Assembly (NCBI GenBank): GCA_017516265.1
Contig: JAFXDL010000014.1
Span: forward strand, 1 to 45,084
Source of the DNA: Bacteroidaceae bacterium
GTDB lineage: Bacteria; Bacteroidota; Bacteroidia; Bacteroidales; Bacteroidaceae
Length of the DNA stretch: 45,084 nt
Direction of reading: 5' to 3'
The number at the start of each line of letters is the position of its first letter. Position 1 is the stretch's first letter. This document shows, piece by piece, positions 1 through 44,910 of the stretch. The notes beneath the pieces were generated by a model that made no database searches, had not been told where the DNA came from, and was given only the letters and a program-made list of their open reading frames with translations. The position numbers and the translations under genes are program-made.

Positions 1-332
1 CGGGGAATATCACGAATGCTGTACTGGCGTGAACGGAGAAGTTCTTTCGCATATTCCACCCGATAACTGTTGACCACCGTCTTCAAGTTGCATCCGAAAT
101 ACCGATTGACCGTCCCTGACAGGTAGGAAGTATTCGTGCCGACTATTAGACTGAATTTGGCCAAAGACAACTCGGGGTTCAGGTAAACCCTCTCTTCCTC
201 CAAATGGTACTTTACCTTATTATATAAGTCGGCCAGTTTGGACTCTTTGACCTCCTCAGATTCTCTTTCTCCATAGGATTTGGAGTCAGTCGGCTGACTG
301 TCAGATGTTAGTACTCTTTCTGCTTCTCTCAT
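1..332 (-). CDS. AraC-family transcriptional regulator, partial (N-terminal part visible)
   Basis: The reverse strand reads open from an ATG at 330-332 to the left edge, giving about 110 residues; the C-terminus is outside the window. A charged, Ser/Glu-rich N-terminal stretch of about 30 residues is followed by a segment typical of AraC-type DNA-binding domains: LSLAKFSLIVGTNTSYLSG is the first helix-turn-helix, then VNRYFG and a VNSYRVEYAKELL linker helix. In the usual two-HTH arrangement the second HTH would lie beyond the edge. The start is placed at the first in-frame ATG, about 30 bases downstream of a Bacteroidetes-type promoter. No sensory domain is visible, so it could be a stand-alone regulator or only the end of a longer protein with an earlier start. 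Its target genes cannot be inferred. Confidence 0.75.
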   Translation of the reverse strand, partial: MREAERVLTSDSQPTDSKSYGERESEEVKESKLADLYNKVKYHLEEERVYLNPELSLAKFSLIVGTNTSYLSGTVNRYFGCNLKTVVNSYRVEYAKELLRSRQYSIRDIP

Positions 333-360
333 CTTGAACGTTTTAAACAGATTTACGGGG

Positions 361-391
361 CAAAAGTAATATTGTTTTTGTAATTGAGCAA
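361..391 (-). promoter_or_regulatory. Bacteroidetes-type promoter for the AraC-like gene
   Basis: On the minus strand a TACTTTTG box (361-368) matches the Bacteroidetes -7 consensus TAnnTTTG. A TTG (389-391) lies 20 bases upstream, as expected for the -33 box. Transcription would begin near 355 and run leftward into the gene that starts at 332. Confidence 0.6.
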
Positions 392-458
392 GACTTTGTT
401 CTCCTAAAGAATAAGTAACGGTTGTAATATTTAAGATTCAGGAATTATTTTCATTGGA

Positions 459-1199
459 TTACCCATTTGTGACCCGTAGCCTTTCCCAGATGGGACGGGG
501 GATGAGGCGCCAGAAGAAGACTAGCAGACGGTAACGCCAGTCGATGATGCGGATGCGGTGGTGGTGCTTGAGGGCGTGGACGATGTCGCGGGCCACGGGC
601 TCGGCCTTCATCAGCAGCGGATAGCGGGCATCGCGCAGCAGGTCGGTGGCAACGAAGCCCGGGCGGATGTCTGTAAAGTCGATGGGCAGGTGTTGCAGGT
701 GTGCCAATTGGGACAGGGCTTGGATGTAGGTGTTCTGAAAACGTTTGGTGGCAGAGTAGGCCGGAGCGACTCCGATTCCCTTGGTTCCGGCTATGGAACT
801 GATGACTGCTATGTGTCCGCGGGCATCGCGTGTGGCATGTGCCTTGAAGTGGTTGAAGGCGTAGGTGACCATGCGTACGAATCCCTCACCATTGGTACGG
901 GCGGTGCGCATCTCTATGTCGGGGTCGAGGGTGGCATTCTGGAATCCGATGCCGCTACTGTGGAAGTAGAGCTCCATTCCCCCCAGTTCGTCAATGAGGC
1001 TTTGCAGACGGGTAGGGGCATCCGTGTCTGTCACATCCAGTACGGCTGTCTTTACTTGGCCTTCGGGAAATTCGGCTTGCAGTGATTGCAGCAACTCTTC
1101 ACGACGACCGGCAATGCCTATCTGCCAGCCGTCTTTGGCCAACAAGCGGGCCACTTCGCGTCCGATACCAGAGGTGGCACCGATGATGATAGCTCTCAT
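459..1199 (-). CDS. SDR-family NAD(P)-dependent oxidoreductase
   Basis: A 246-residue classical short-chain dehydrogenase/reductase. The N-terminus carries the dinucleotide-binding motif GATSGIG (residues 7-13). The catalytic triad is visible as Ser135 in ISSIAG and Tyr148/Lys152 in YSATK. Length and motif order fit the cytosolic classical SDR class. The C-terminal end (FFWRLIPRPIW) is hydrophobic and may touch the membrane. The substrate cannot be told from sequence. It is last in a minus-strand run yicC-gmk-nadD-SDR, separated from nadD by a repeat element. The start is the ATG at 1197-1199, only six residues before the glycine motif, so no earlier start is likely. Confidence 0.9.
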   Translation of the reverse strand: MRAIIIGATSGIGREVARLLAKDGWQIGIAGRREELLQSLQAEFPEGQVKTAVLDVTDTDAPTRLQSLIDELGGMELYFHSSGIGFQNATLDPDIEMRTARTNGEGFVRMVTYAFNHFKAHATRDARGHIAVISSIAGTKGIGVAPAYSATKRFQNTYIQALSQLAHLQHLPIDFTDIRPGFVATDLLRDARYPLLMKAEPVARDIVHALKHHHRIRIIDWRYRLLVFFWRLIPRPIWERLRVTNG

Positions 1200-1205
1200 G
1201 ATTTA

Positions 1206-1348
1206 AGTCCCCTGTAGCCCCCTCTAACTTCCCCAAAGGGGGAGGATTCAAAGACCGAGAGTATTGGGGGATGTTTTTAAGTTATTACTGTTTATTTATT
1301 CAAATCATTTTAAACTCCCTCTCCTTTGGGGAGGGCTGGGGTGGGGCC
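1206..1348. repeat. Hairpin-ended mini-element, copy A (SDR/nadD junction)
   Basis: The left part (about 1206-1245) contains GCCCCCTCTAACTTCCCC followed by AAAGGGGGAGG. The middle is AT-rich with AAGTTATTACTG and TTTATTTATT. The right part (about 1313-1346) holds CTCCTTTGGGGAGGG. The ends are G/C-rich hairpins in opposite orientation. The same architecture recurs at 1904-2051 and 6651-6768. The right end lies inside the last codons of nadD. Confidence 0.65.
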
Positions 1349-1896
1349 ACCTCTTCCCAAACCTCCTTCGGCAGAAAGTACCTCACATCTTTTCCCTCCC
1401 GCAGTGACTGCCGGATGAAGGTGGAGCTGATTTCCAACAGGGGGGTGTCAACCAGACGGACGTTCGGGGGGAGGGTCTCTTCCTTGATGGGGTAGTCGGG
1501 GCGTGGATAGATGAGCAACTGGTTTTCGGCCAACAGTTCATCGTGCTTGTACCAACGGGGGAAGACCTGCCAATTGTCGCTACCGATGATAAGGGTGAAT
1601 TCATGCTCGGGGTAGCTTTGCCGGAGGGCTCGCAGGGTGTTCACCATGTAGCTGGGGCGTGGCAGATGGAACTCAAAGTCCGAGGCACGGAACTTGCTGT
1701 ATCCTTTGATGGAGAGCCTGACCAGTTCGAGGCGCAGTTCGTCGGGCCACAGGTCGTCACGTTCCTTCAGCGGGTTGTGGGGCGAGACGAGGAACCACAC
1801 TTCATCTACTTTGCCGTATTCGCAAAGGTAGTTGGCCAGGGCCAGGTGTCCGATGTGTATGGGGTTGAAGGAACCTCCGAAGATGCCGATGTTCAT
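1300..1896 (-). CDS. nadD: Nicotinate-nucleotide adenylyltransferase
   Basis: NadD transfers AMP from ATP to nicotinate mononucleotide, making deamido-NAD in the cytoplasm. The start at 1896 gives [18 protein letters not shown], which places the nucleotidyltransferase GGSFNP and HIGH motifs at residues 7-17; the open frame extends 13 codons upstream but those codons come from a repeat. The C-terminal ISSTFIR motif is present. Length is 198 residues, normal for the family. The last roughly dozen residues ([15 protein letters not shown]) are encoded by the hairpin mini-element rather than by typical nadD sequence. It follows yicC and gmk on the same strand, a gene order common in Bacteroidales. 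Confidence 0.95.
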
Positions 1897-1903
1897 AAGG
1901 TAA

Positions 1904-2051
1904 AAGCCCCTTGTAGCCCCCTCTGACTCCCCCAAAGGGGGAGGAATTAAAGAATCTACAGTTACTGGGGAAATAAGTTATTACTATTTATTTGTTTAGG
2001 TAGAGGCCTTAGAGTTCGCTCTTCCCCCCTTCGGGGGGATTGAGGGGGGCC
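1904..2051. repeat. Hairpin-ended mini-element, copy B (nadD/gmk junction)
   Basis: The left end (about 1913-1943) reads GCCCCCTCTGACTCCCCC then AAAGGGGGAGG. The middle again contains AAGTTATTACTATTTATTTG. The right end (about 2018-2050) has CTTCCCCCCTTCGGGGGG then GAGGGGGGCC. The right end encodes the last residues of Gmk, and the left end abuts the nadD start. Layout matches copies A and C. Confidence 0.65.
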
Positions 2052-2605
2052 AAAAACTCCCGTATTACTCGCAGCGCTTCGGCCTTGGCTGTCTCCAAGT
2101 CGTCGTTGATGATCACCACATCGAACTTGGAGGCGAAGCTCAGTTCGTATGCCGCTTTAGCAATGCGGCTTTCGATGACGTCGGGAGCATCCGTGCCACG
2201 GCCTTCCAAGCGGTGGCGGAGTTCCTCGATGCTGGGAGGCTGGATGAATACAGAGAGGGCACGGTCGCCATAGAACTGTTTGATGTTGCAGCCGCCCACG
2301 ACATCTACGTCGAAGATGACGTTCTGTCCGGCATTCAACTGATTCTCCACTTGTGACTTCAAGGTGCCGTAGAAGCGGTCCTGATAGACCTCTTCGTATT
2401 CCAGGAACTCGTTGTCCGCAATGCGTTGGCGGAACTCCTCGGGAGTGAGGAAGAAATATTCCACCCCGTGCTGTTCCTGTCCGCGTGGCGGACGGCTGGT
2501 GGCCGAGATGGAGAATGCCAGATGCAGGTCTTGCTCCAGCAGATAGTTGATGATGGTGGATTTGCCTGACCCTGATGGGGCAGAGAAGATAATCAGTTTG
2601 TTCAT
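2009..2605 (-). CDS. gmk: Guanylate kinase
   Basis: Gmk phosphorylates GMP to GDP using ATP in the cytoplasm. The P-loop APSGSGKST is at residues 9-17. The GMP-binding region follows: SATSRPPRGQEQHGVEY, then FLEYEEVYQDRFYGT. DVDVVGG and the lid sequence (EGRGTD) are also present. Length (198) is slightly above the bacterial norm because the last dozen residues (LAPLNPPEGGKSEL) come from the adjacent hairpin mini-element. It sits between yicC and nadD on the same strand. Confidence 0.95.
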   Translation of the reverse strand: MNKLIIFSAPSGSGKSTIINYLLEQDLHLAFSISATSRPPRGQEQHGVEYFFLTPEEFRQRIADNEFLEYEEVYQDRFYGTLKSQVENQLNAGQNVIFDVDVVGGCNIKQFYGDRALSVFIQPPSIEELRHRLEGRGTDAPDVIESRIAKAAYELSFASKFDVVIINDDLETAKAEALRVIREFLAPLNPPEGGKSEL

Positions 2606-2648
2606 ATTTCTACATTGATTGAGCCTTGAATCTTGTAATACTTCCTAC

Positions 2649-2686
2649 TCTGCTCTATCCCCCTTTGGGGGAGTCGGAGTAGGCCT
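2649..2686. repeat. Partial copy of the hairpin mini-element (gmk/yicC junction)
   Basis: CTACTCTGCTCTATCCCCC followed by TTTGGGGGAGTCGGAGTAGG forms one long hairpin directly after the yicC stop codon. It resembles one end of the elements at 1206, 1904 and 6651; no second end is visible here. Confidence 0.5.
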
Positions 2687-3559
2687 TTACATTACATTCA
2701 AAACTTGTTCCTTGATTTGCTCCAGTTCGTCCTTCATCTTCACCACGATGTTCTGCATTTCAGCCTGGTTGCTCTTGCTGCCTGTGGTGTTGATTTCACG
2801 TCCCATTTCCTGTGCTATGAATCCCAGTTTCTTGCCTTGGCCTTGTCCTTCCTGCATGGTTTGGCGGAAGTAGGCCAAGTGGTTGGTGAGGCGCTGTTTC
2901 TCTTCGTTGATATCCAGCTTCTCGATGTAGTAGATGAGTTCTTGCTCCAAGCGGTTCTTGTCGTACTCCACGGGCAGTTTTTGCAGGTTCTCCACGATGC
3001 GGTCGCGTATCTTCTGCACGCGCTCAGTCTCGTATGGCTCAATCTCCTTCATCAGAGCGGCAATGTTGTCCAGCTTTTCTTCAAACTTGCTTGCCAGTGC
3101 TTTTCCTTCCTGTTTGCGGAAATCCACCAGTTGGTTCACGGCCTCTTCCACTACAGTATGAGCCACAGCCCACTCCTCGTCCGAGAGTTCCTGTACCTCC
3201 ACCCGTGTCATCACATCGGGCATACGCAGCAGGGTGCTGAACCACTCTTCGGGTTGGGGGATGCCGTATTGCTCGGCAATGCCTTTGATTTGTGCATAGT
3301 AGTTGCCCACCAGTGCCCCGTTGATGGGTGTGGCAGCCTCGGTAGCCTCTTTTTCCACCCACAGGTTGAAGTCAACCTTGCCGCGCTCCAGTGCCTTGCT
3401 GATGATGGTGCGTATCTCCATCTCCTTTTCGCGGTAGAGAGGGACTATACGGGTGCTCAAATCCAGCGCTTTACTGTTTAGCGAGCGTATCTCGGCAAAG
3501 ATTTTCTTGTCGCCGTATGTGGCCATGGCCTTGCCGTAGCCGGTCATTGATTGTATCAT
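2687..3559 (-). CDS. YicC/YloC-family endoribonuclease
   Basis: A 290-residue member of the YicC family, whose characterised members are endoribonucleases acting on RNA. The N-terminal family signature MTGYGKA and EIRSLNSKALDLSTRI is clear. The C-terminal DUF1732 segment includes the acidic EQELIYYIEKLDINEEKQRL stretch and GKKLGFIAQEMGREINTTGSK. Helical, charged sequence fills the middle. It is the first gene of the minus-strand run and lies directly upstream of gmk, a conserved pairing. A TACATTTG box at 3590-3597 is a likely -7 element, but its -33 partner is weak. Confidence 0.92.
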   Translation of the reverse strand: MIQSMTGYGKAMATYGDKKIFAEIRSLNSKALDLSTRIVPLYREKEMEIRTIISKALERGKVDFNLWVEKEATEAATPINGALVGNYYAQIKGIAEQYGIPQPEEWFSTLLRMPDVMTRVEVQELSDEEWAVAHTVVEEAVNQLVDFRKQEGKALASKFEEKLDNIAALMKEIEPYETERVQKIRDRIVENLQKLPVEYDKNRLEQELIYYIEKLDINEEKQRLTNHLAYFRQTMQEGQGQGKKLGFIAQEMGREINTTGSKSNQAEMQNIVVKMKDELEQIKEQVLNVM

Positions 3560-3632
3560 ATCTTCGTATTATTGTTTGTTTATTGGCTGCAAATGTAGCA
3601 CTTTTTTTTAAAACTTCGGGCATTTATATACG

Positions 3633-3667
3633 AAAAAGCCAAGGAGGTCCTCGCGGTCGTCCTTGGC
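3633..3667 (-). terminator. Rho-independent terminator after the M56 gene
   Basis: On the minus strand GCCAAGGA (3660-3667) pairs with TCCTTGGC (3638-3645) and is followed by TTTTT (3633-3637). It lies between the end of the M56 gene (3842) and the start of yicC (3559), so it would stop blaI-M56 transcription before the next operon. Confidence 0.75.
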
Positions 3668-3736
3668 ATTAGCGCGCTATGATTAATTAACTACTTTGCT
3701 TTTAGCTTTTGTTTGAGTTTCGCAAGCTTGGGCTTT

Positions 3737-3804
3737 CGGGAGTGCAGGAGTGTAGATTTTTTTATCAAGGTATGGTGTCTGCACTCCTGCCTTCTACACT
3801 CCTA
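3737..3804. repeat. Micro-repeat island, AGGAGT dialect
   Basis: GGAGTGCAGGAGTGTAG (about 3739-3755) faces CTGCACTCCTGCC and CTACACTCCT (about 3779-3803). Together they form an imperfect hairpin built of 7-8 base units. Related islands lie near 17590, 25735, 29000, 43200 and 44110. It occupies the spacer between the terminator and the M56 gene. Confidence 0.6.
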
Positions 3805-3841
3805 AAACCATACTCCTCTGGTATATTTGCCTTTAACTCCT

Positions 3842-6634
3842 TTAGCTTTCCTTCTTAAAACGGAAGGATACAGGAATGGCGACACTGCCATTCACGGGTT
3901 TCCCGTTGAGCACAGCGGGTGTCCATCCTTCTTTGGGAAGCAGGTCGGCTACCCGGTGAGCCTCTTGAATCAGTGCATCGGGAGTTTCCAGGTGGTTCTT
4001 TCGGGTGATGTCGGTATATCCAATCAGCTTGCCCTCGGGGCTGATGAAGGCTTGCAACAGGACGTGTTCCTCGACCTTATCCGAAAGGTTCTTGTCAAAC
4101 CTCAGACGGTTTTGGAAGAAGTTCAGCATCGCTTCTCTGCCTTCAGGGTATTGGGCTCGGGTCGTCGGTTGCGATTCCACCACGATGGACTGTCCGTTGA
4201 CCACAGTGGTAAACTGCGTGCTTTTCCCCTTCCCGCTTGCCAACCGGAACTGTATGGGCAGTGTAAATTTCACGTTCACAGCTTGTCCTCGTTGTGTACC
4301 AGGCTTCCATGTAGGCATGGCATTGACCACGCGGATGGCTTCGGCATCCAGTTCGGGTGAGACGCTACGCATGATGGTAGGGTCACTGACTTCCCCCGTC
4401 TTTGTAATGACAAATTGTACGATGACGCGGCCTTGGATGCTGTCCCTCATGGCCTGTTCGGGATACTTGATGTTTTTGGAAATGAACTTCATCAGTTCGG
4501 CCATACCGCCGGGGAACTCGGGCATGTTCTCTACGACTTGGAAGACTTCGTCTGTGCTGTTGTTGTCTTGCTCGACAGGCAAATCATATACCGCTTTCAC
4601 ATTGCCTTTGCCTATTATGCGGATGTCGCCTTGCTCTTCGTCCTTAATGCCTTCAGATTCCAAGCTGAAGGAGATAGGAATGTTGTATTTGCAATCTACA
4701 GCCATGCCACGCTGGCGACCAGGTTTCCATGTGGGCATTGCTTTGATTACTCGGACGGCTTCGGCGTCCAAGGCGGGAGAAATGCCTTTTTTCACTTCAA
4801 TGTCGCGCAACTTCCCGTCTTTACCTACAACGAAAGAGACTATGACACGTCCCTGTTCACCATTCTGCTTGGCTTCGGCAGGATAGTTGAGGTTCTTGGC
4901 AAGGAACTTCATCAGTTCGGCATTACCGCCTGGGAACTCGGGCATCTCCTCCACAACCATGAAGACTGGTTCGGCATCGCCAAATTCCAAGTGTTCCTCT
5001 TGATATTGACGGACGGAGCCGTTCAGTTTCAAGTGGTCGACATTCTCCATATCCTCTGTTCGAAGCATGTCGAGAGTAAACTCTGTCGGATGCATCCTGA
5101 TCGTGTGTTCCATGTAGGGGACTTGTCCGTTAGGCATTTTGATGCCTACACTGTGCATACCAACGTAAGAGACATTGACGACCTCTTTGCTCGGGTCGAA
5201 CTCGATTTCGAAGCGTCCCTCTTTGTCGGACACAGTGCCGCGTCCGGTGCCGCGGACTACCACATTGGCTCCGTAGATCGGCTCGTTTGTCTCAGCATTT
5301 ATCAGACGGAAGCGCATTTTCATTCTTCCTTCCGTTGACTGGTGATAACTGATTCTCAGAACATAGATATTGCGAAGCGTCTCTTTCAGTTTCTCGAAAC
5401 TTTCCTTCGGAGCATTATTGTCAAGCTTCACGTTTACGGCAAGGTATTGTCCTCCACCGGCTTCTGTAAGTTTCCTGCGTTCGGTTTGGATGTAGTTGGC
5501 CACGTCGTCCAACGAGCCCTTCTTCAGTGTTCCACCCATACGGCCGTAGCTGTATTCGCCGGCATTGTTGACATGGACGGTGAACTTTTCGTTGGATTTT
5601 TCGTCTAAAGTTTGGTCATTTGCCAAAACTTCCGTACCTTTGGCCTCTGAAACGCCGTTACTGTTATTCGCGGCTTCAGTGTGGGCGAATGCTACCATTG
5701 AGATAGCGGCCAACGGGAGTACGTAGAGGTACTTCAACCGTGCCCATGGATGTGACTTTTCTTTCATCATCATAGTTAAACGTTTCTTCAATGAACTATG
5801 GTTAAGGCTGTTGGCAAGAGAGTAGAGCCTTGCGCCGACAGCCTTTTTTATAATCAATAACTGGTATTCCTTGGCATTGATTCCCCGGCGGAGCACGGTG
5901 TCGTCGGCCTCGTACTCGTGGATGTTCTGCAACTCCTGACGGAGTAGCCATGCCGCGGGATTGAACCACTGTGCCAGCAGGCAGACCTCAACCAAAAGAA
6001 GGTCCCATGAATGATGGTTGCTGATGTGCGCCTGTTCGTGAGCTACAATCTGACGCCCGTTTTCGCGGTAGTCCGTTTCAGAGATGACGATGTACTTCAT
6101 CCAGCTGAACGGGGCTATGTCCGATTGTGGGTGCAGATAGAGGCGGGTGCCGTCTTCAAGGCGCTGCATCCGTCCCTGTTTGAGCAGGCTGAAGAGACGG
6201 ACAAGCGAAGCCACATGGCGCACCAGCAGAAAGAGGATGCCTCCGATGTAGAGCAGGAAGAGGAGGTCGCCCCAATGTTCACTCAAGAACTCACCGAGTG
6301 AGAAGGCTGGTTCCATCGGTACGATGTCAGCTTCGGCCACGGAGATGGCGGCAAAATCCATGTCGCTCCAACTCACATCTATCGTGGCGGTTGTCGTTTC
6401 TGCCTCCTGTCCCGTCAGCCAATGTTCCCACCGCTGGTAGAGCTGGCTCAACAGCATAGGTTCCTCGGTGGTGATGCGGCAGGTAGGGATGACTACCGAT
6501 GCCAGCAGGATGCTGATGAGCGCCATGCGGTTGAAGCGGTGGAATGTCTCGCGGCTGAGCAATACCATGTAGAATGGGTAGAACAGCGTCAGACAGAGCA
6601 CCGACTTCATCAGGTATAGGAAAAAGGTGGTCAT
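3842..6634 (-). CDS. M56-family metallopeptidase with CarboxypepD-like and TonB C-terminal domains (BlaR1-like sensor)
   Basis: A 930-residue inner-membrane protein when started at 6634 (MTTFFLYLMKS); the open frame runs 13 codons further up but these are repeat sequence. The N-terminal half has several membrane segments (about 3-25, 35-52, 120-140, 215-235) and an M56 zinc site, HEQAH near residue 200, followed by EYEAD. A carboxypeptidase-like regulatory fold follows (NAETNEPIYGANVVVRGTG). Next are two clear TonB_C domains, each with EFPGG, GRVIV and PTWKPG motifs, and a third degenerate one that keeps the fold pattern but lacks EFPGG. Characterised BlaR1/MecR1 relatives cleave a BlaI-type repressor on sensing a signal. 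The repressor gene lies just upstream, so these two probably form a signalling pair. What the TonB_C domains contact is unknown. Confidence 0.9.
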   Translation of the reverse strand: MTTFFLYLMKSVLCLTLFYPFYMVLLSRETFHRFNRMALISILLASVVIPTCRITTEEPMLLSQLYQRWEHWLTGQEAETTTATIDVSWSDMDFAAISVAEADIVPMEPAFSLGEFLSEHWGDLLFLLYIGGILFLLVRHVASLVRLFSLLKQGRMQRLEDGTRLYLHPQSDIAPFSWMKYIVISETDYRENGRQIVAHEQAHISNHHSWDLLLVEVCLLAQWFNPAAWLLRQELQNIHEYEADDTVLRRGINAKEYQLLIIKKAVGARLYSLANSLNHSSLKKRLTMMMKEKSHPWARLKYLYVLPLAAISMVAFAHTEAANNSNGVSEAKGTEVLANDQTLDEKSNEKFTVHVNNAGEYSYGRMGGTLKKGSLDDVANYIQTERRKLTEAGGGQYLAVNVKLDNNAPKESFEKLKETLRNIYVLRISYHQSTEGRMKMRFRLINAETNEPIYGANVVVRGTGRGTVSDKEGRFEIEFDPSKEVVNVSYVGMHSVGIKMPNGQVPYMEHTIRMHPTEFTLDMLRTEDMENVDHLKLNGSVRQYQEEHLEFGDAEPVFMVVEEMPEFPGGNAELMKFLAKNLNYPAEAKQNGEQGRVIVSFVVGKDGKLRDIEVKKGISPALDAEAVRVIKAMPTWKPGRQRGMAVDCKYNIPISFSLESEGIKDEEQGDIRIIGKGNVKAVYDLPVEQDNNSTDEVFQVVENMPEFPGGMAELMKFISKNIKYPEQAMRDSIQGRVIVQFVITKTGEVSDPTIMRSVSPELDAEAIRVVNAMPTWKPGTQRGQAVNVKFTLPIQFRLASGKGKSTQFTTVVNGQSIVVESQPTTRAQYPEGREAMLNFFQNRLRFDKNLSDKVEEHVLLQAFISPEGKLIGYTDITRKNHLETPDALIQEAHRVADLLPKEGWTPAVLNGKPVNGSVAIPVSFRFKKES

Positions 6635-6650
6635 TTGATTACAAGTTAGA

Positions 6651-6768
6651 AGCCTCTCCCTAACCCTCCCCAAAAGGGAGAGAACTGGAAATGCTACGTT
6701 TTTATTGTTTATTTATTATTCTCTTCTTGGGATTCTCCCCCTTGGGAGGAGTTAGAGGGGGCCTCCAC
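6651..6768. repeat. Hairpin-ended mini-element, copy C (blaI/M56 junction)
   Basis: The left end (about 6653-6682) reads CTCTCCCTAACCCTCCCC then AAAAGGGAGAG. The AT-rich middle contains TTTATTGTTTATTTATTATT. The right end (about 6733-6763) reads CTCCCCCTTGGGAGGAG then TTAGAGGGGGCC. The ends are inverted relative to each other over about 28 bases. The right end supplies the last codons of the BlaI-like gene. Copies A and B have the same design. Confidence 0.65.
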
Positions 6769-7110
6769 CTGACGAATAAGGTCTTTTAGCTCGTCAAGGG
6801 ATATTTCTTCCTCTTTCACCAAGCTGGATACCAGACCCATGTAAGAGTTGTTGAAGTACTTGCTGATAACATTGCGCACGGTACGCTTGTGATACTCGTT
6901 GCGGCTGACAAGCGGATAGTACTGGTATGACACACCAAAGGCACGGTGCCCGATGTAGCCCTCGTCCTCCAAAATGCGTACGAAGGTGGATACAGTGTTG
7001 AAGTGAGGCTTCGGGTCATCGTAGTGCTGGAGCATTTCCTTCACAAACATGGGGCCATTGTCCCACAACAGATTCATGATAATCTCTTCTTTCGGACTCA
7101 GATTTTTCAT
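6709..7110 (-). CDS. BlaI/MecI/CopY-family transcriptional repressor
   Basis: A 133-residue penicillinase-repressor-type regulator. The winged-helix domain spans about residues 1-75 (LSPKEEIIMNLLWDNGPMFV; NTVSTFVRILEDEGYI; YQYYPLVSRNEY). It is followed by the helical dimerisation region (NVISKYFNNSYMGLVSSLV...ISLDELKDLI). In this family the repressor is cleaved by a partner M56 protease, which is encoded immediately downstream. The final residues (APSNSSQGGESQEENNK) are encoded by a hairpin mini-element and are unlike family C-termini. Two palindromes upstream (7158-7195) are likely autoregulatory operators. Confidence 0.93.
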   Translation of the reverse strand: MKNLSPKEEIIMNLLWDNGPMFVKEMLQHYDDPKPHFNTVSTFVRILEDEGYIGHRAFGVSYQYYPLVSRNEYHKRTVRNVISKYFNNSYMGLVSSLVKEEEISLDELKDLIRQVEAPSNSSQGGESQEENNK

Positions 7111-7157
7111 TGTTTTCTCTCTTTTACGGGTTGTAAACTAAACTCTCGCTGCAAAGG

Positions 7158-7195
7158 AACGAAAGTTTTACGTTATAGAACGAATATTTCTCGTT
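7158..7195. promoter_or_regulatory. Tandem operator-like palindromes upstream of blaI
   Basis: Two 17-base imperfect palindromes, AACGAAAGTTTTACGTT (7158-7174) and AACGAATATTTCTCGTT (7179-7195), lie 21 bases apart start to start, about two helical turns. Both have AACGAA and CGTT ends. The first abuts a -7-like TTCCTTTG on the minus strand (7151-7158). Bound repressor would block transcription of blaI and the M56 gene. That BlaI binds here is inference from position and symmetry. Confidence 0.65.
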
Positions 7196-7266
7196 AAAAG
7201 ATGTAAAGAGGGAGAAAAAAGAGAGAAAAAAGGGTGTTTGGTTGTGGAGAAAGCGGTTCGGAGTTC

Positions 7267-7490
7267 AGGAAAAGTTCAAGGTTTAAGGTTTAAGGTTTAA
7301 AGTTCAATAAAGTTCAAGGTTTAAGGTTCAAGGTTCAAGACGAAGCGGATGCACACCCTCAATAAATGTCGCCCAACCATTCTTTTGGCAGGCAGACCCT
7401 GCCCCTATGGCAAACGAATGGGTGCACATTCTTGAACTTTAAACCTTAAACTTTGAACCTTAAACCTTGAACCTTGAACCTTAAACCATA
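7267..7490. repeat. Micro-repeat island, GGTTCAA/GGTTTAA dialect, in a 392-base gap
   Basis: The gap 7111-7502 holds no gene. A left arm (about 7272-7340) is made of heptamers GGTTTAA, GGTTCAA and AGTTCAA. A right arm (about 7430-7488) carries the reverse complements (TTGAACC, TTAAACC). The arms could pair over roughly 60 bases. The intervening 90 bases contain smaller inverted segments, such as GGCAG facing CTGCC and CACACCC facing GGGTGCAC. Other traces of this dialect occur at about 8614-8632, 43092-43145 and 44606-44620. Confidence 0.7.
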
Positions 7491-7502
7491 TTCTTGCCTT
7501 TA

Positions 7503-8603
7503 TCACCCCTTCGCCTGTTTGAAATAGGTGTCCAGCAGTTGGTGTGCAGCAGTGAATGAGGTCAGTGTTCCGCCCAAAACCTCGTTCTCCTTTTGGCTGA
7601 GCATAGAGGCAATGGAGGGATTGTTGTAGAAACTGTTACGCAACTGCTCATTGATGCTTTCGTACATCCAATACTTGGCCTGTTCGTTGCGGCGGTATTG
7701 GAAGTATCCGTTGGCTTTGACGAAATCGATGTATTCATAGACCATGTCCCATATTTCCTTGATGCCCAGTCCGTAGAAACCCGAGTAGGTGAGCACGCGG
7801 GGCGACCATCCGCTTTCGGGAGCAGGGAAGAGGTGCAGTGCATTGCGGAAGTGTGCGGCTGCCAGCTTGGCTTTCTCCAGGTTGTTTCCGTCGGCCTTGT
7901 TGATTACGATACCATCGGCCATCTCCATGATGCCACGCTTGATGCCTTGTAACTCGTCGCCAGTGCCAGCCAGTTGGATGAGCAGGAAGAAATCGACCAT
8001 GGAGTGTACGGCCGTCTCACTTTGACCCACTCCCACTGTCTCCACAAAGATCTTGTCAAATCCGGCAGCTTCGCACAAGATGATGGTCTCGCGGGTCTTG
8101 CGTGCTACCCCTCCGAGTGAACCGGCCGATGGGCTGGGACGGATGAACGAGTCGGGATGTACGCTCAGTTTTTCCATGCGTGTCTTGTCTCCCAAGATGC
8201 TTCCTTTGCTACGTTCGCTGCTGGGGTCGATAGCCAGTACCGCCAGTTTGCCTCCACGCTCCAGTACGTGCAGACCGAAAGCGTCGATGGAAGTACTCTT
8301 TCCTGCACCGGGTACACCGCTGATGCCTATGCGTATGGAACTGCCGGCATAGGGCAGGCACTTCTCTATCACCTCTTGGGCTATGGTCTGATGCTCGGGC
8401 AGGGTGCTTTCCACCAGAGTGACGGCTTGGCTCAACAGGGTGGTGTTCCCCTTCAAGATTCCTTCCACGTAATCGCCCACACTGAGCTGCTGGCGCTTGG
8501 GCTTTCGCTGGAATTTGCGATACGGATTGATGGTCGAGGGTTGTTCGATGCCTTTGTTTACGGTCAGGCCTTTGTATTCTTCGCTGTTTTCGGGATGTTC
8601 CAT
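7503..8603 (-). CDS. meaB: Methylmalonyl-CoA mutase-associated GTPase (MeaB/ArgK family)
   Basis: A 366-residue G3E-type P-loop GTPase that protects and reloads the B12-dependent methylmalonyl-CoA mutase. Visible motifs are GVPGAGKST (residues 96-104), AIDPSSERSKGSILGDKTRM (switch region), ETVGVGQSE (Walker B and base II), and NKADGNN (guanine specificity). Length and motif order match the family. Mutase genes are not in the window. The neighbour on the same strand is a DUF1573 gene about 100 bases upstream; a shared transcript is possible but unproven. The start is the ATG at 8601-8603; a leader of about 90 residues before the P-loop is normal. Confidence 0.95.
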   Translation of the reverse strand: MEHPENSEEYKGLTVNKGIEQPSTINPYRKFQRKPKRQQLSVGDYVEGILKGNTTLLSQAVTLVESTLPEHQTIAQEVIEKCLPYAGSSIRIGISGVPGAGKSTSIDAFGLHVLERGGKLAVLAIDPSSERSKGSILGDKTRMEKLSVHPDSFIRPSPSAGSLGGVARKTRETIILCEAAGFDKIFVETVGVGQSETAVHSMVDFFLLIQLAGTGDELQGIKRGIMEMADGIVINKADGNNLEKAKLAAAHFRNALHLFPAPESGWSPRVLTYSGFYGLGIKEIWDMVYEYIDFVKANGYFQYRRNEQAKYWMYESINEQLRNSFYNNPSIASMLSQKENEVLGGTLTSFTAAHQLLDTYFKQAKG

Positions 8604-8613
8604 GTGGGGTAGG

Positions 8614-8683
8614 GTTTAAAGTTCAAAGTTCAATAATCTTCCTTTTTCTCCTTTTATCTCTCTATATATAATAAGGTATAGGT
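8614..8683. repeat. Short heptamer remnant and a 21-base sequence shared with 36421-36441
   Basis: GTTTAAAGTTCAAAGTTCAA (8614-8633) is a single arm of the GGTTCAA dialect. At 8663-8683 there is an AT-rich 21-mer (TATATATAATAAGGTATAGG plus one base) that is repeated exactly at 36421-36441. It lies between meaB and the DUF1573 gene. I cannot assign a function. Confidence 0.5.
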
Positions 8684-8705
8684 AATGGGGCAGATGGACT
8701 CAGGT

Positions 8706-9773
8706 TTATCTGCTTAGGGGGATGTCAATCTCCAGTTTGGGATTGTTCGGATCGTTGGTGATGAGCAGTACGCGTGCTTCGGTCGGGCTTCTCTTCAAGT
8801 ATTTGGCAGTGGCTGTAACCTTCAGTTTGGTATGCTCGCCTGGTGCCAGGGTACTTTTCTTCAGTGTGACGCTCAAGGCCGGATTGGAAACCTGCAACTC
8901 TTGTATCCTCAAGGGGGATTTTCCTGTGTTGCTCAGTGTCAGTGTCCGGGTAAACTTCTTCTTCTTTCCGAATGGTCCAAAGTCAATGTCTGTTTCCGAG
9001 ATATTAGCTTGGGGAGCCAGTGTCCGCTCAGCAGCACTCAGTGCGGAGAAGTCGGGGAGCAGTGTGGCAGTCAATGGGATTTCATTTTCTTCCGAAACCT
9101 TGTCACCCATATAGCGCGAAAGGAATACGGATGTTTGTGTCAGTCCCAGGTGTGTCAGCTTGTCTGTGTCCAGTGTCAGCATCAGTGTGCCGGCTTGTTT
9201 GCGACGCAGTGTGTCAGGCATGGACTTCAAAGTGATGTAGGATGGCAGGTGCATCAGTACGGGTACGTAGGGGGCATCACCCGTATTGATGATGTTGATT
9301 TGGGCCGTTGGCCGTTGTCCTTTGTAGGCATCGGCAAAGTCCACCCTGTTGCAGTTCATCCGTATATTCCCCATCTGGTAGGGGTGTGTTTCGTCGTAAT
9401 TGTCCAGTCGGCTCACCACATGTCCACGCAGGGTCAGGTAGTAGGGGGCATCATCGGCATTGGTGTATATGGCTACCATCTTTTGGAAGCGTCCCAAGAA
9501 GCCGGCATCGAATGTGGCAGAGATTTCTCCGCTTTTTCCGGGTGCTATGGGCGATTCTGTCCACTTGGCCACTGTGCACCCACAGTCGGTACCTGCATAG
9601 GTGATGTTCAGTGGCTGGTTCCCACGGTTGGCCACAGTGAAAGTTACAGTGACAGGCTCTTTCCAAAGTACAGTCCCCAGGTCGGCTTCCGTACGGTCGA
9701 AAAAGGGAGCTGGTTGTGCACTGGCCAGGCAGGCATACAGGGATAAAATAGCTACTATTGCGATGCGTTTCAT
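8706..9773 (-). CDS. Secreted DUF1573 domain protein (two domains)
   Basis: A 355-residue protein when started at 9773 (MKRIAIVAILS); the longer frame adds 16 residues without a signal peptide. The N-terminus is a signal peptide ending in CLASAQ. A first DUF1573/immunoglobulin-like domain follows (FDRTEADLGTVLWKEPVTVTF, with the typical TDCGCT motif). A second lies in the C-terminal third (TDIDFGPFGKKKKFTRTLTLSNTGKSPLRI, ending with LLITNDPNNP). DUF1573 proteins are common in Bacteroidetes envelopes; their biochemical role is not settled. It is upstream of meaB on the same strand. Confidence 0.85.
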   Translation of the reverse strand: MKRIAIVAILSLYACLASAQPAPFFDRTEADLGTVLWKEPVTVTFTVANRGNQPLNITYAGTDCGCTVAKWTESPIAPGKSGEISATFDAGFLGRFQKMVAIYTNADDAPYYLTLRGHVVSRLDNYDETHPYQMGNIRMNCNRVDFADAYKGQRPTAQINIINTGDAPYVPVLMHLPSYITLKSMPDTLRRKQAGTLMLTLDTDKLTHLGLTQTSVFLSRYMGDKVSEENEIPLTATLLPDFSALSAAERTLAPQANISETDIDFGPFGKKKKFTRTLTLSNTGKSPLRIQELQVSNPALSVTLKKSTLAPGEHTKLKVTATAKYLKRSPTEARVLLITNDPNNPKLEIDIPLSR

Positions 9774-9869
9774 GACGTTTTTTCTTGTTAAAATCTTGTT
9801 TTCGGGTTCTATTTGGGGCAAAGGTAGAAAAAAAACGTCAGTTGGCAGTGCTTATTTTCTACTTTGTTG

Positions 9870-9877
9870 TATCTTTG
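9870..9877 (+). promoter_or_regulatory. Likely -7 box for the SufT-like gene
   Basis: TATCTTTG matches TAnnTTTG and lies 25 bases before the ATG at 9902. No convincing TTG is seen at the usual distance, so the -33 half is weak. Confidence 0.45.
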
Positions 9878-9901
9878 CTTGCAATATTAAAGCATATTAG
9901 A

Positions 9902-10168
9902 ATGGATTTTGATAAATTTGCGATAGAAGAGCGCATCATTGCGATGCTGAAAACGGTGTTTGACCCAGAGATTCCTGTCAATGTCTATGACCTGGGATTG
10001 ATATACAAAATTGATGTGGAAGAGTCAGGGACTGTGTCGATAGACATGACTCTGACGGCTCCCAACTGTCCGGCGGCAGACTTCATTATGGAGGATGTGC
10101 GTCAAAAGGTTGAGTCGGTACAGGGAGTGACTGCAGCCACTATCAACTTGGTCTTTGAACCCGAGTGA
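9902..10168 (+). CDS. MIP18/DUF59-family metal-sulfur cluster assembly factor (SufT-like)
   Basis: An 88-residue single-domain protein of the MIP18/PaaD-like (DUF59) family, whose members help mature Fe-S proteins. It shows the family signature DPEIPVNVYDLGLIY (residues 21-35), the TLTAPNCP motif with conserved Cys56, and a C-terminal VNLVFEPE-like strand. The ATG at 9902 follows a -7 box by about 25 bases; longer frames run into the neighbouring DUF1573 promoter region and are unlikely. It is divergent from the DUF1573 gene and upstream of lpxH. Which Fe-S client it serves is unknown. Confidence 0.88.
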   Translation: MDFDKFAIEERIIAMLKTVFDPEIPVNVYDLGLIYKIDVEESGTVSIDMTLTAPNCPAADFIMEDVRQKVESVQGVTAATINLVFEPE

Positions 10169-18189: not shown

Positions 18190-18506
18190 CTGATTCAACG
18201 TGTAAGTTTATGGGATTCAGTAGTAATCACAACTCTCCCTCTAAGTTAGAGGGAGTCCCCGTAGGGGGAGGGCGTGTGTCCGTAAAATCCTCATTTTTAC
18301 ACACTCCTCCGGCCTAAGGCCACCCTTCGGGGCATCGTCGCACAGAGCACTGTGCTCCCCTCGCAAGGCACGGATTGACATCTAGTCAATCCTCTATTGA
18401 CCTTGCTACGCCCCTAACTTAGGGGAGGAGTTGCAGTTACTCTGCTCCTTATATTAAACTTACGTTAAATTAGTACAAAAACAGGGTACAACAAATTGGA
18501 CACCTT
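18190..18506. mobile_element. MITE-like element, copy 1 (left end eroded)
   Basis: This element fills most of the 18149-18599 gap. From about 18190 it matches the element at 44622-44910: TTCAGTAGTAA, then CTCCCTCTAAGTTAGAGGGAG (a near-perfect palindrome), GGGGGAGGGCGTGTGTCC, CTCCTCCGGCCTAAGGCCACC, and CCCCTAACTTAGGGGAGGAG. It ends at 18478-18506 in a sequence that is the reverse complement of the other copy's left end (28 of 29 bases). About 86 bases (18331-18412) are extra here, including GATTGACATCTAGTCAATC. No coding capacity, so it must be non-autonomous. Confidence 0.7.
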
Positions 18507-44621: not shown

Positions 44622-44910
44622 AGGGTGTCCAATTTGTTGTACCCTGTTTTGAGTTCTTTTTCAACGCCTAATTCTATGAGGTTCAGTAGTAACCACAACT
44701 CTCCCTCTAAGTTAGAGGGAGTCCCCGCAGGGGGAGGGCGTGTGTCCTTAAACTCTTTATTTTCACACACTCCTCCGGCCTAAGGCCACCTCCCCTAACT
44801 TAGGGGAGGAGTTGTAGTTACTCCGCTCCTTATATCAAACTTACATAAATCAGAGCAAAAAACAGGGTGCCACAAATTGCCCACCCCCTAGGTGACACGT
44901 TGGACACCTT
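44622..44910. mobile_element. MITE-like element, copy 2 (most complete)
   Basis: This fills most of the 44576-45084 gap. The left terminal repeat (44622-44650) includes GGTGTCCAATTTGTTGTACC. The right end (44859-44910) includes AAAACAGGGTGCCACAAATT and ends GACACCTT, but 23 bases (about 44880-44902) are inserted between the two halves. Inside are CTCCCTCTAAGTTAGAGGGA, CTCCTCCGGCCTAAGGCC and CCCCTAACTTAGGGGAGGAG, all palindromic. It is homologous to 18190-18506. No coding capacity and no clear target-site duplication seen. Confidence 0.7.

Follow-up and report, generated by a model that had tools for sequence, protein, structure and literature searches.

Palindromic repeats that are read as part of proteins are best known from Rickettsia. 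The Rickettsia palindromic elements (RPEs) are described as sequences of about 105-150 bp that form several families and lie in frame in unrelated conserved genes, with Gmk among their hosts (PMC2229807, PMC10969869). The Correia elements of Neisseria, or Neisseria miniature insertion sequences (NEMIS), are reported to include a short class that is open and intragenic and a long class that contains stops and is nearly always intergenic (PMC2229807). BrickBuilt, a miniature inverted-repeat transposable element (MITE) of Porphyromonas gingivalis, is reported as strictly intergenic (PMC10969869). Here we describe short hairpin-ended elements in a gut lineage of Bacteroidaceae, three of them within one 45,084-nt stretch of DNA (the window), which is contig JAFXDL010000014.1 (C189) of draft genome G000. 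We consider it probable that these are non-autonomous mobile repeats which land between operon genes and inside genes, where the copies that remain are in frame, with DUF559 genes as their candidate partner. Among the matches listed in the open literature, there was no report of coding palindromes in Bacteroidota.

G000 is a single draft genome whose 223 contigs total 2.89 Mb; its completeness is 76.6%, and about 592 kb (about one fifth) of it was read. Genes and open reading frames (ORFs) were called by a purpose-written caller. Among relatives of its Gmk that carry names, the nearest are mostly metagenome-assembled genomes labelled Bacteroidaceae bacterium. Each element in the window has an AT-rich centre enclosed by two inverted C-rich arms, which are about 30 nt long and resemble GCCCCCTCTAACTCCCCCAAAGGGGGAG or one of its variants. 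The AT-rich motif TTATTACTGTTTATTTAT, with up to two mismatches, occurs at 1282, 1978 and 6699 and at no other place in the 41 own-genome stretches scanned. A profile of the arm finds seven arms in the window and none when read backwards. The preliminary description of this DNA had proposed inverted G/C-rich ends around an AT-rich centre, which the profile pairs and the shared motif confirm, and the three elements and the half copy (given there at 2649) were found where it had put them:

1206-1348: element e1, arms 1217-1246 (+) and 1318-1347 (-), flanked by the 3' end of nadD on one side and the beginning of the following ORF (459-1199, -) on the other
1300-1347 (-): NadD C-terminus from the element, 15 residues and the stop, read from the right arm of e1
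1904-2051: element e2, arms 1916-1945 (+) and 2021-2050 (-), between the nadD start and the gmk end
2009-2050 (-): Gmk C-terminus from the element, APLNPPEGGKSEL and the stop, read from the right arm of e2
2655-2684 (-): half copy (single arm), 2 bp beyond the yicC stop codon
6651-6768: element e3, arms 6652-6681 (+) and 6733-6762 (-), flanked by the beginning of an M56/TonB_C gene on one side and the blaI end on the other
6709-6762 (-): BlaI C-terminus from the element, APSNSSQGGESQEENNK and the stop, read from the right arm of e3

RPEs are the closest kind, with the same mode of life, a likeness drawn from published descriptions. In both cases many-copy palindromes (35 strict arm matches here) lie in frame in unrelated conserved genes and are absent from orthologs, and Gmk is a host in both. 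The present elements differ in belonging to another phylum, in having two C-rich hairpin arms, in being often shorter and in lying in many cases between genes; moreover, similar arms flank DUF559 genes elsewhere. They share the short inverted-repeat form with Correia/NEMIS and other MITEs, and here too shorter pairs are more often inside ORFs, but sequence and hosts differ and a target duplication was not seen in the present elements. Terminal inverted repeats without a transposase gene are a MITE feature that they show. BrickBuilt is likewise a MITE of Bacteroidales, but as reported is confined to intergenic places. The elements are best filed as a variant of protein-coding palindromes, and the candidate enzyme considered below would make the finding more than that.

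Copies inside genes and at gene ends

Arms were detected by the profile at two score cuts and, separately, by a strict 28-nt pattern allowing up to three mismatches. Placement was studied in 21 own stretches, namely the window and 20 others picked by similarity to e1 with gene position ignored. At the higher cut 9 of 29 arm pairs lie inside reading frames (11 of 32 at the looser cut), outside the coordinates that the preliminary description covered. The host ORFs encode an ABC-F protein (with two elements), an S9 peptidase, a helicase, an HlyD-type membrane fusion protein (MFP), resistance-nodulation-division (RND) pumps, a glycosyltransferase, a second ABC-F protein, a primase-like protein and an amidase. 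A Pfam family was assigned to 10/10 host ORFs; the matches span the insert or continue on both sides of it in the ABC-F, the MFP and one RND ORF, and elsewhere the insert lies beside the matched domain.

In four genes compared with congeners, the flanks are kept in relatives that lack the element, and length differences are divisible by three in 50 of 50 aligned rows (ABC-F 17/17, S9 14/14, MFP 7/7, glycosyltransferase 12/12), loci where both flanks failed to align having been dropped (S9 1/15, MFP 6/13, glycosyltransferase 1/13). At ABC-F site 1 both G000 and G003 have an insert of 96 nt, that of G008 measures 45 nt, and the 12 remaining congeners have 3-15 nt; at this site paralogs of G005, G008 and G003 carry different palindromes of 117, 96 and 51 nt, respectively. 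Close congeners, six in number (G001, G002, G003, G006, G009 and G012), have 6 nt at the S9 site, G007 and G008 have palindromes of another type (GTTGAC-type) there, and the remaining rows are distant. The MFP site has 15 nt in five congeners, an arm-like sequence in G007 and another insert in G003. The glycosyltransferase site is long (at least 39 nt) in every row, with C-rich elements in G000, G008, G002 and G004 and other sequences elsewhere. Because the reading frame is often unbroken, the elements are predicted to lengthen the proteins when translated. Several palindrome families reuse the same protein linkers, and sister species with empty sites provide a natural experiment on the way from insertion to protein.

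The same arm is in frame in two further genera of the family, in a V-ATPase I subunit (L239, L296), an RNase H linker (L252), a GH28-GH88 ORF (L234) and a C-terminal tail, APSNSPKGEDSK (L241). Within ORFs or at the ends of genes, 38 arms are read in the sense direction, some of them non-independent; 19 of the 25 starting with GCCC begin at codon position 1, and a frame with a stop inside the arm itself is used in 4/38. The encoded peptide is often A-P-S-N-S-P-K-G-G-E. An additional palindrome family, of CGTAGGGG..CCCCTACGG units, occurs in two RND-type pump ORFs on contig C101 of G000 (L019 1833-5564 and 7056-10319). These ORFs carry several palindromic inserts that keep the frame and belong to two or more families, four of them being copies of this unit.

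At the gene ends in the window, comparison with relatives indicates that the elements are the source of the NadD, Gmk and BlaI tails. The NadD tails of 12 congeners are all unlike the window's, and its Gmk tail was found in 0/12 congeners. In other Bacteroidales, Gmk ends no more than 6 residues past the aligned core in 78 of 80 gmk loci, the exceptions being L087 and L091. The AlphaFold2 model of Gmk has a confident core and a predicted local distance difference test score below 50 at residues 190-198, so the tail is probably unstructured. This tail does not look like a clean insertion by eye: since Gmk of G007 and G008 ends QK-stop immediately before arm-like sequence, about 11 nt with the native end appear to have been lost here, and the arm to be read instead. 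An arm-coded BlaI tail, EAPSNSPKGEEAQEQ, like that of the window, is present in G004 and G008, and 9 of 11 congeners are without such a tail; judged by sequence, it is therefore common to three species (G000, G004 and G008). The proposal that the elements supply new C-terminal tails thus stands, with other ends in most relatives examined, among which the same tails were not found in distant relatives without the hairpins.

Abundance and placement

The strict pattern had 35 matches in G000 and none when read backwards, so further genome copies exist, and the description of a non-autonomous inverted-hairpin repeat with many copies at operon junctions was upheld. The profile found 82 arms in the 259.5 kb of own stretches that had been selected for their matches, compared with 0 in one mononucleotide shuffle. 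Strict matches occurred in 8 of 15 genus genomes, with most in G000, and in 10 of 121 sampled family genomes, or 5 of 30 genera. Twenty own contigs chosen regardless of arms (194.5 kb) had four arms at the lower cut; at the higher cut they had one, and the backwards profile also gave one. The elements are therefore unevenly spread and, outside matching stretches, not above control.

At the higher cut the 21 own stretches contained 29 pairs and 20 single arms. Nine pairs were inside ORFs, three across a stop, two overlapping a start and 15 intergenic, where random placement predicts 22.5 inside ORFs, 1.8 across a stop, 1.6 at other gene ends and 3.1 intergenic; six single arms were inside ORFs, one across a stop and 13 intergenic. 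By these counts intergenic places are enriched, gene interiors are depleted and stop codons are not preferred (3/29 pairs versus 1.8 expected, P = 0.26; 3 versus 6.2 of 20 expected once ORF-internal places are excluded). All three stop-spanning pairs are in the window, where the gene-end copies form a local cluster. A preference for gene ends, as first suggested, was thus not borne out, and one for stop codons was rejected, as random placement gives a comparable number.

Pairs are 73-180 bp long, with 19 of 32 within 73-91 bp. Ten of the 24 pairs of up to 105 bp lie inside ORFs compared with one of the eight longer ones, and a 117-bp pair inside an ORF was found later (L265). The number of open frames out of six was 2.64 for elements inside ORFs (a value biased by location), 2.10 for those outside and 1.81 for shuffles, a small effect. 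Residual spacers (median 52.5 for 10 pairs, versus 102.5 for 92 ordinary co-directional spacers; P = 0.077) were not counted as shown to be shorter. Generic inverted repeats inside ORFs numbered 9 in 214 kb of coding sequence in selected own stretches versus 1 in 154 kb of unselected own sequence; there was 1 in 161 kb of cultured Bacteroides/Phocaeicola, 1 in 156 kb of Prevotella and kin, and none in either 88 kb of others or the 40 kb that came from four near relatives.

Movement and DUF559 as candidate partner

Over 128 bp, e1 shares 87% identity with an element located after gmk in G007, and in the window e1 sits after nadD. By comparison, e2, at the place matching the gmk element of G007, is only 71% identical to that element over 87 bp. 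Relatives of the e1 centre were found at eight places in four genomes, e1 counted. These patterns point to active movement, and for the e1/G007 pattern gene conversion between neighbouring sites may be an alternative. More generally, spread by recombination, gene conversion or slippage alone, without a dedicated enzyme, would suit the variation among arms, the many singles (20 beside 29 pairs), the tandem arms in L022 and L252 and the fact that target duplication was not seen. We nevertheless regard it as unlikely, given the presence or absence of elements at defined ortholog sites and the recurrence of one arm type across unrelated genes and genera.

The best candidate for a mobile partner is DUF559, a Vsr/EDxHD-like nuclease that may mobilise the repeats. 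A DUF559 gene has been assigned to the EDxHD homing endonuclease family (PMC9403480, citing Taylor et al. 2011); the present cases differ in that DUF559 is bracketed by inverted C-rich hairpins, either at the junctions of operons or within another gene and in its frame. The word DUF559 also occurs once in PMC12907096, which deals with a Vsr-like protein. Flanking repeats were absent from the titles and abstract openings of open papers that use the word DUF559. Each of the 4 DUF559 genes found in the loci of relatives is preceded by a + arm and followed by a - arm, both no more than 500 bp away; a fifth DUF559 gene, that of G000, has none of this type. In three Prevotella-type loci the DUF559 ORF continues in frame into Gmk via a C-rich arm, the DUF559 part in frame being partial in L091. 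If MITEs are expected to have a related autonomous element, the candidate would be DUF559 between C-rich arms in the Prevotella-type loci, and between other arms in G000. There, 45-nt hairpin arms of different sequence flank the own DUF559 gene (C155, L174, about 2741-3190), whose reading frame extends into the downstream arm. This 45-nt arm has 10 further full copies (95-98% identity) in 591.9 kb of own sequence, one of them in the window. The neighbouring gene (L174 3268-4449), which we take to be aminotransferase-like, appears as two adjacent ORFs. The features concerned are as follows:

L097 5554-6567: DUF559 and guanylate kinase in a single ORF, joined by a C-rich arm
L098 5560-6564: the same arrangement
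L091 2842-3612: the same arrangement
L320 1373-5261: DUF559 with hairpins in a methylase-type gene, two genes after brxC, Pseudanabaena plasmid
Window 44769-44812 (-): solo copy of the 45-nt DUF559-type hairpin arm; the same arm flanks the DUF559 gene elsewhere in G000
Window 18303-18431 (no strand given): DUF559-type arm split by an interposed stretch, which appears to contain inverted repeats

In 26 DUF559 loci (21 plasmid-collection records, four Prevotella-type and one own) we looked for inverted repeats flanking the gene; a locus passed if the score reached 14 and exceeded that of each of 40 shuffles. Thirteen passed (10 plasmid-collection, two Prevotella-type and one own). Of 621 control windows taken from these loci, 7 reached a score of 14, three of them in L098 (known arms) and four in L311. 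The Fisher P value of 1.4e-15 is only indicative, because windows overlap and the score cut was chosen after a first look. DUF559 genes were located within suf, paa and hpa gene clusters, and in the hpa clusters of three Deinococcus records they occupy different junctions. On a plasmid of Pseudanabaena galeata, the DUF559 domain and its arms are in frame within a methylase-type ORF.

A probable course of events is that C-rich arms, singly or as MITE-like inverted pairs, insert at operon junctions and within genes. The in-gene copies that persist would keep the frame, their arms being read as peptide, which inside a protein would give a loop or linker and at a stop codon a new C-terminal tail; the window's three copies would be this gene-end form. 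As the candidate partner, the DUF559 endonuclease would cut or nick at the hairpins and repair would copy the unit, and the mini-elements would be forms that lost the nuclease gene. We also put forward, tentatively, a wider reading: DUF559 genes with inverted C-rich hairpin flanks may be widespread, unrecognised small autonomous mobile elements in several phyla, with the Bacteroidales pairs and solos as non-autonomous derivatives, both settling at operon junctions or in frame and making tails, linkers and fusions such as the Prevotella-type DUF559-Gmk. If DUF559 is the partner, C-rich hairpin repeats of unexplained mobility would gain a cause and a testable enzyme.

Several points weigh against mobile in-frame repeats with DUF559 as partner. 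Any element within an ORF necessarily has an open frame, so it is the orthologs that count, and congener orthologs were compared for four genes only. Inspection of the ABC-F and S9 sites by eye revealed no recognisable target-site duplication. All four DUF559 cases of the Prevotella type lie immediately upstream of gmk, and a single event may account for them, and DUF559 between window-type C-rich arms was not found in the approximately 592 kb read of the 2.89 Mb G000. The score cut of 14 was chosen after the first twelve DUF559 loci had been seen, and 13 of the 26 loci failed the flank test; L092 and L098 among these have profile arms and L303 scored 13, and in the remaining ten, among them those of E. 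coli, Lelliottia and Sinorhizobium, there was no convincing pair.

Other explanations and neighbouring repeats

Repetitive extragenic palindromic (REP) sequences and bacterial interspersed mosaic elements (BIMEs) also form inverted hairpin pairs near genes, and the present pairs resemble BIMEs. Their mobilisation by a REP-associated tyrosine transposase (RAYT, or TnpA-REP, a Y1 transposase) is nevertheless improbable. Bacteroidetes are reported to have a TnpA-REP subclass, 2.6, with atypical flanking structures (PMC6006769), and a Y1_Tnp frame of about 345 aa is present in congeners G004, G007 and G008, which carry arms too. However, PF01797 was not matched in G000, the arm-richest genome, though this is 76.6% complete, and the congener genes are flanked by CGGCGG..CGCCG-type sequences and not by window-type arms. 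The GTAG tag adjoins the arm in just 2 of 79 arms, and the elements, unlike REP/BIME sequences, are often coding and have no linked RAYT. Membership of the REP/RAYT system therefore fails on tag and on linkage (G000 being incomplete), and RAYT was rejected as partner. The Y1 transposase genes of about 345 aa with CGGCGG..CGCCG-type flanks (L110, L111 and L112, in tandem in L112) perhaps belong to a separate REP system of the genus.

Functional RNA hairpins, selected at operon junctions as terminators or processing sites, are a very unlikely explanation. The intergenic excess (15 of 29 pairs versus 3.1 expected) speaks for them, but many copies lie inside genes and the arms are absent at the same junctions in most congeners. 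Folding z-scores were -0.02 for e1, no better than shuffles, and -1.5 and -2.5 for e2 and e3, moderately better, and window positions 1-10000 had no Rfam match at the gathering threshold. The earlier suggestion of RNA hairpins between cistrons thus draws weak support from e2 and e3, and none from e1 or Rfam. There is next to no likelihood that the in-frame copies reflect misassembly or dead genes, although G000 is a fragmented draft of 223 contigs, as the ABC-F insert recurs in the separate genomes G000 and G003 (shortened in G008), the arm-coded BlaI tail in G000, G004 and G008, and the glycosyltransferase insert in G000, G008, G002 and G004, all in frame.

The window also contains, between blaI and the next gene (7260-7490), inverted arrays of GTTCAAGGTTTAAGG-type repeats, relatives of which are found on other contigs.

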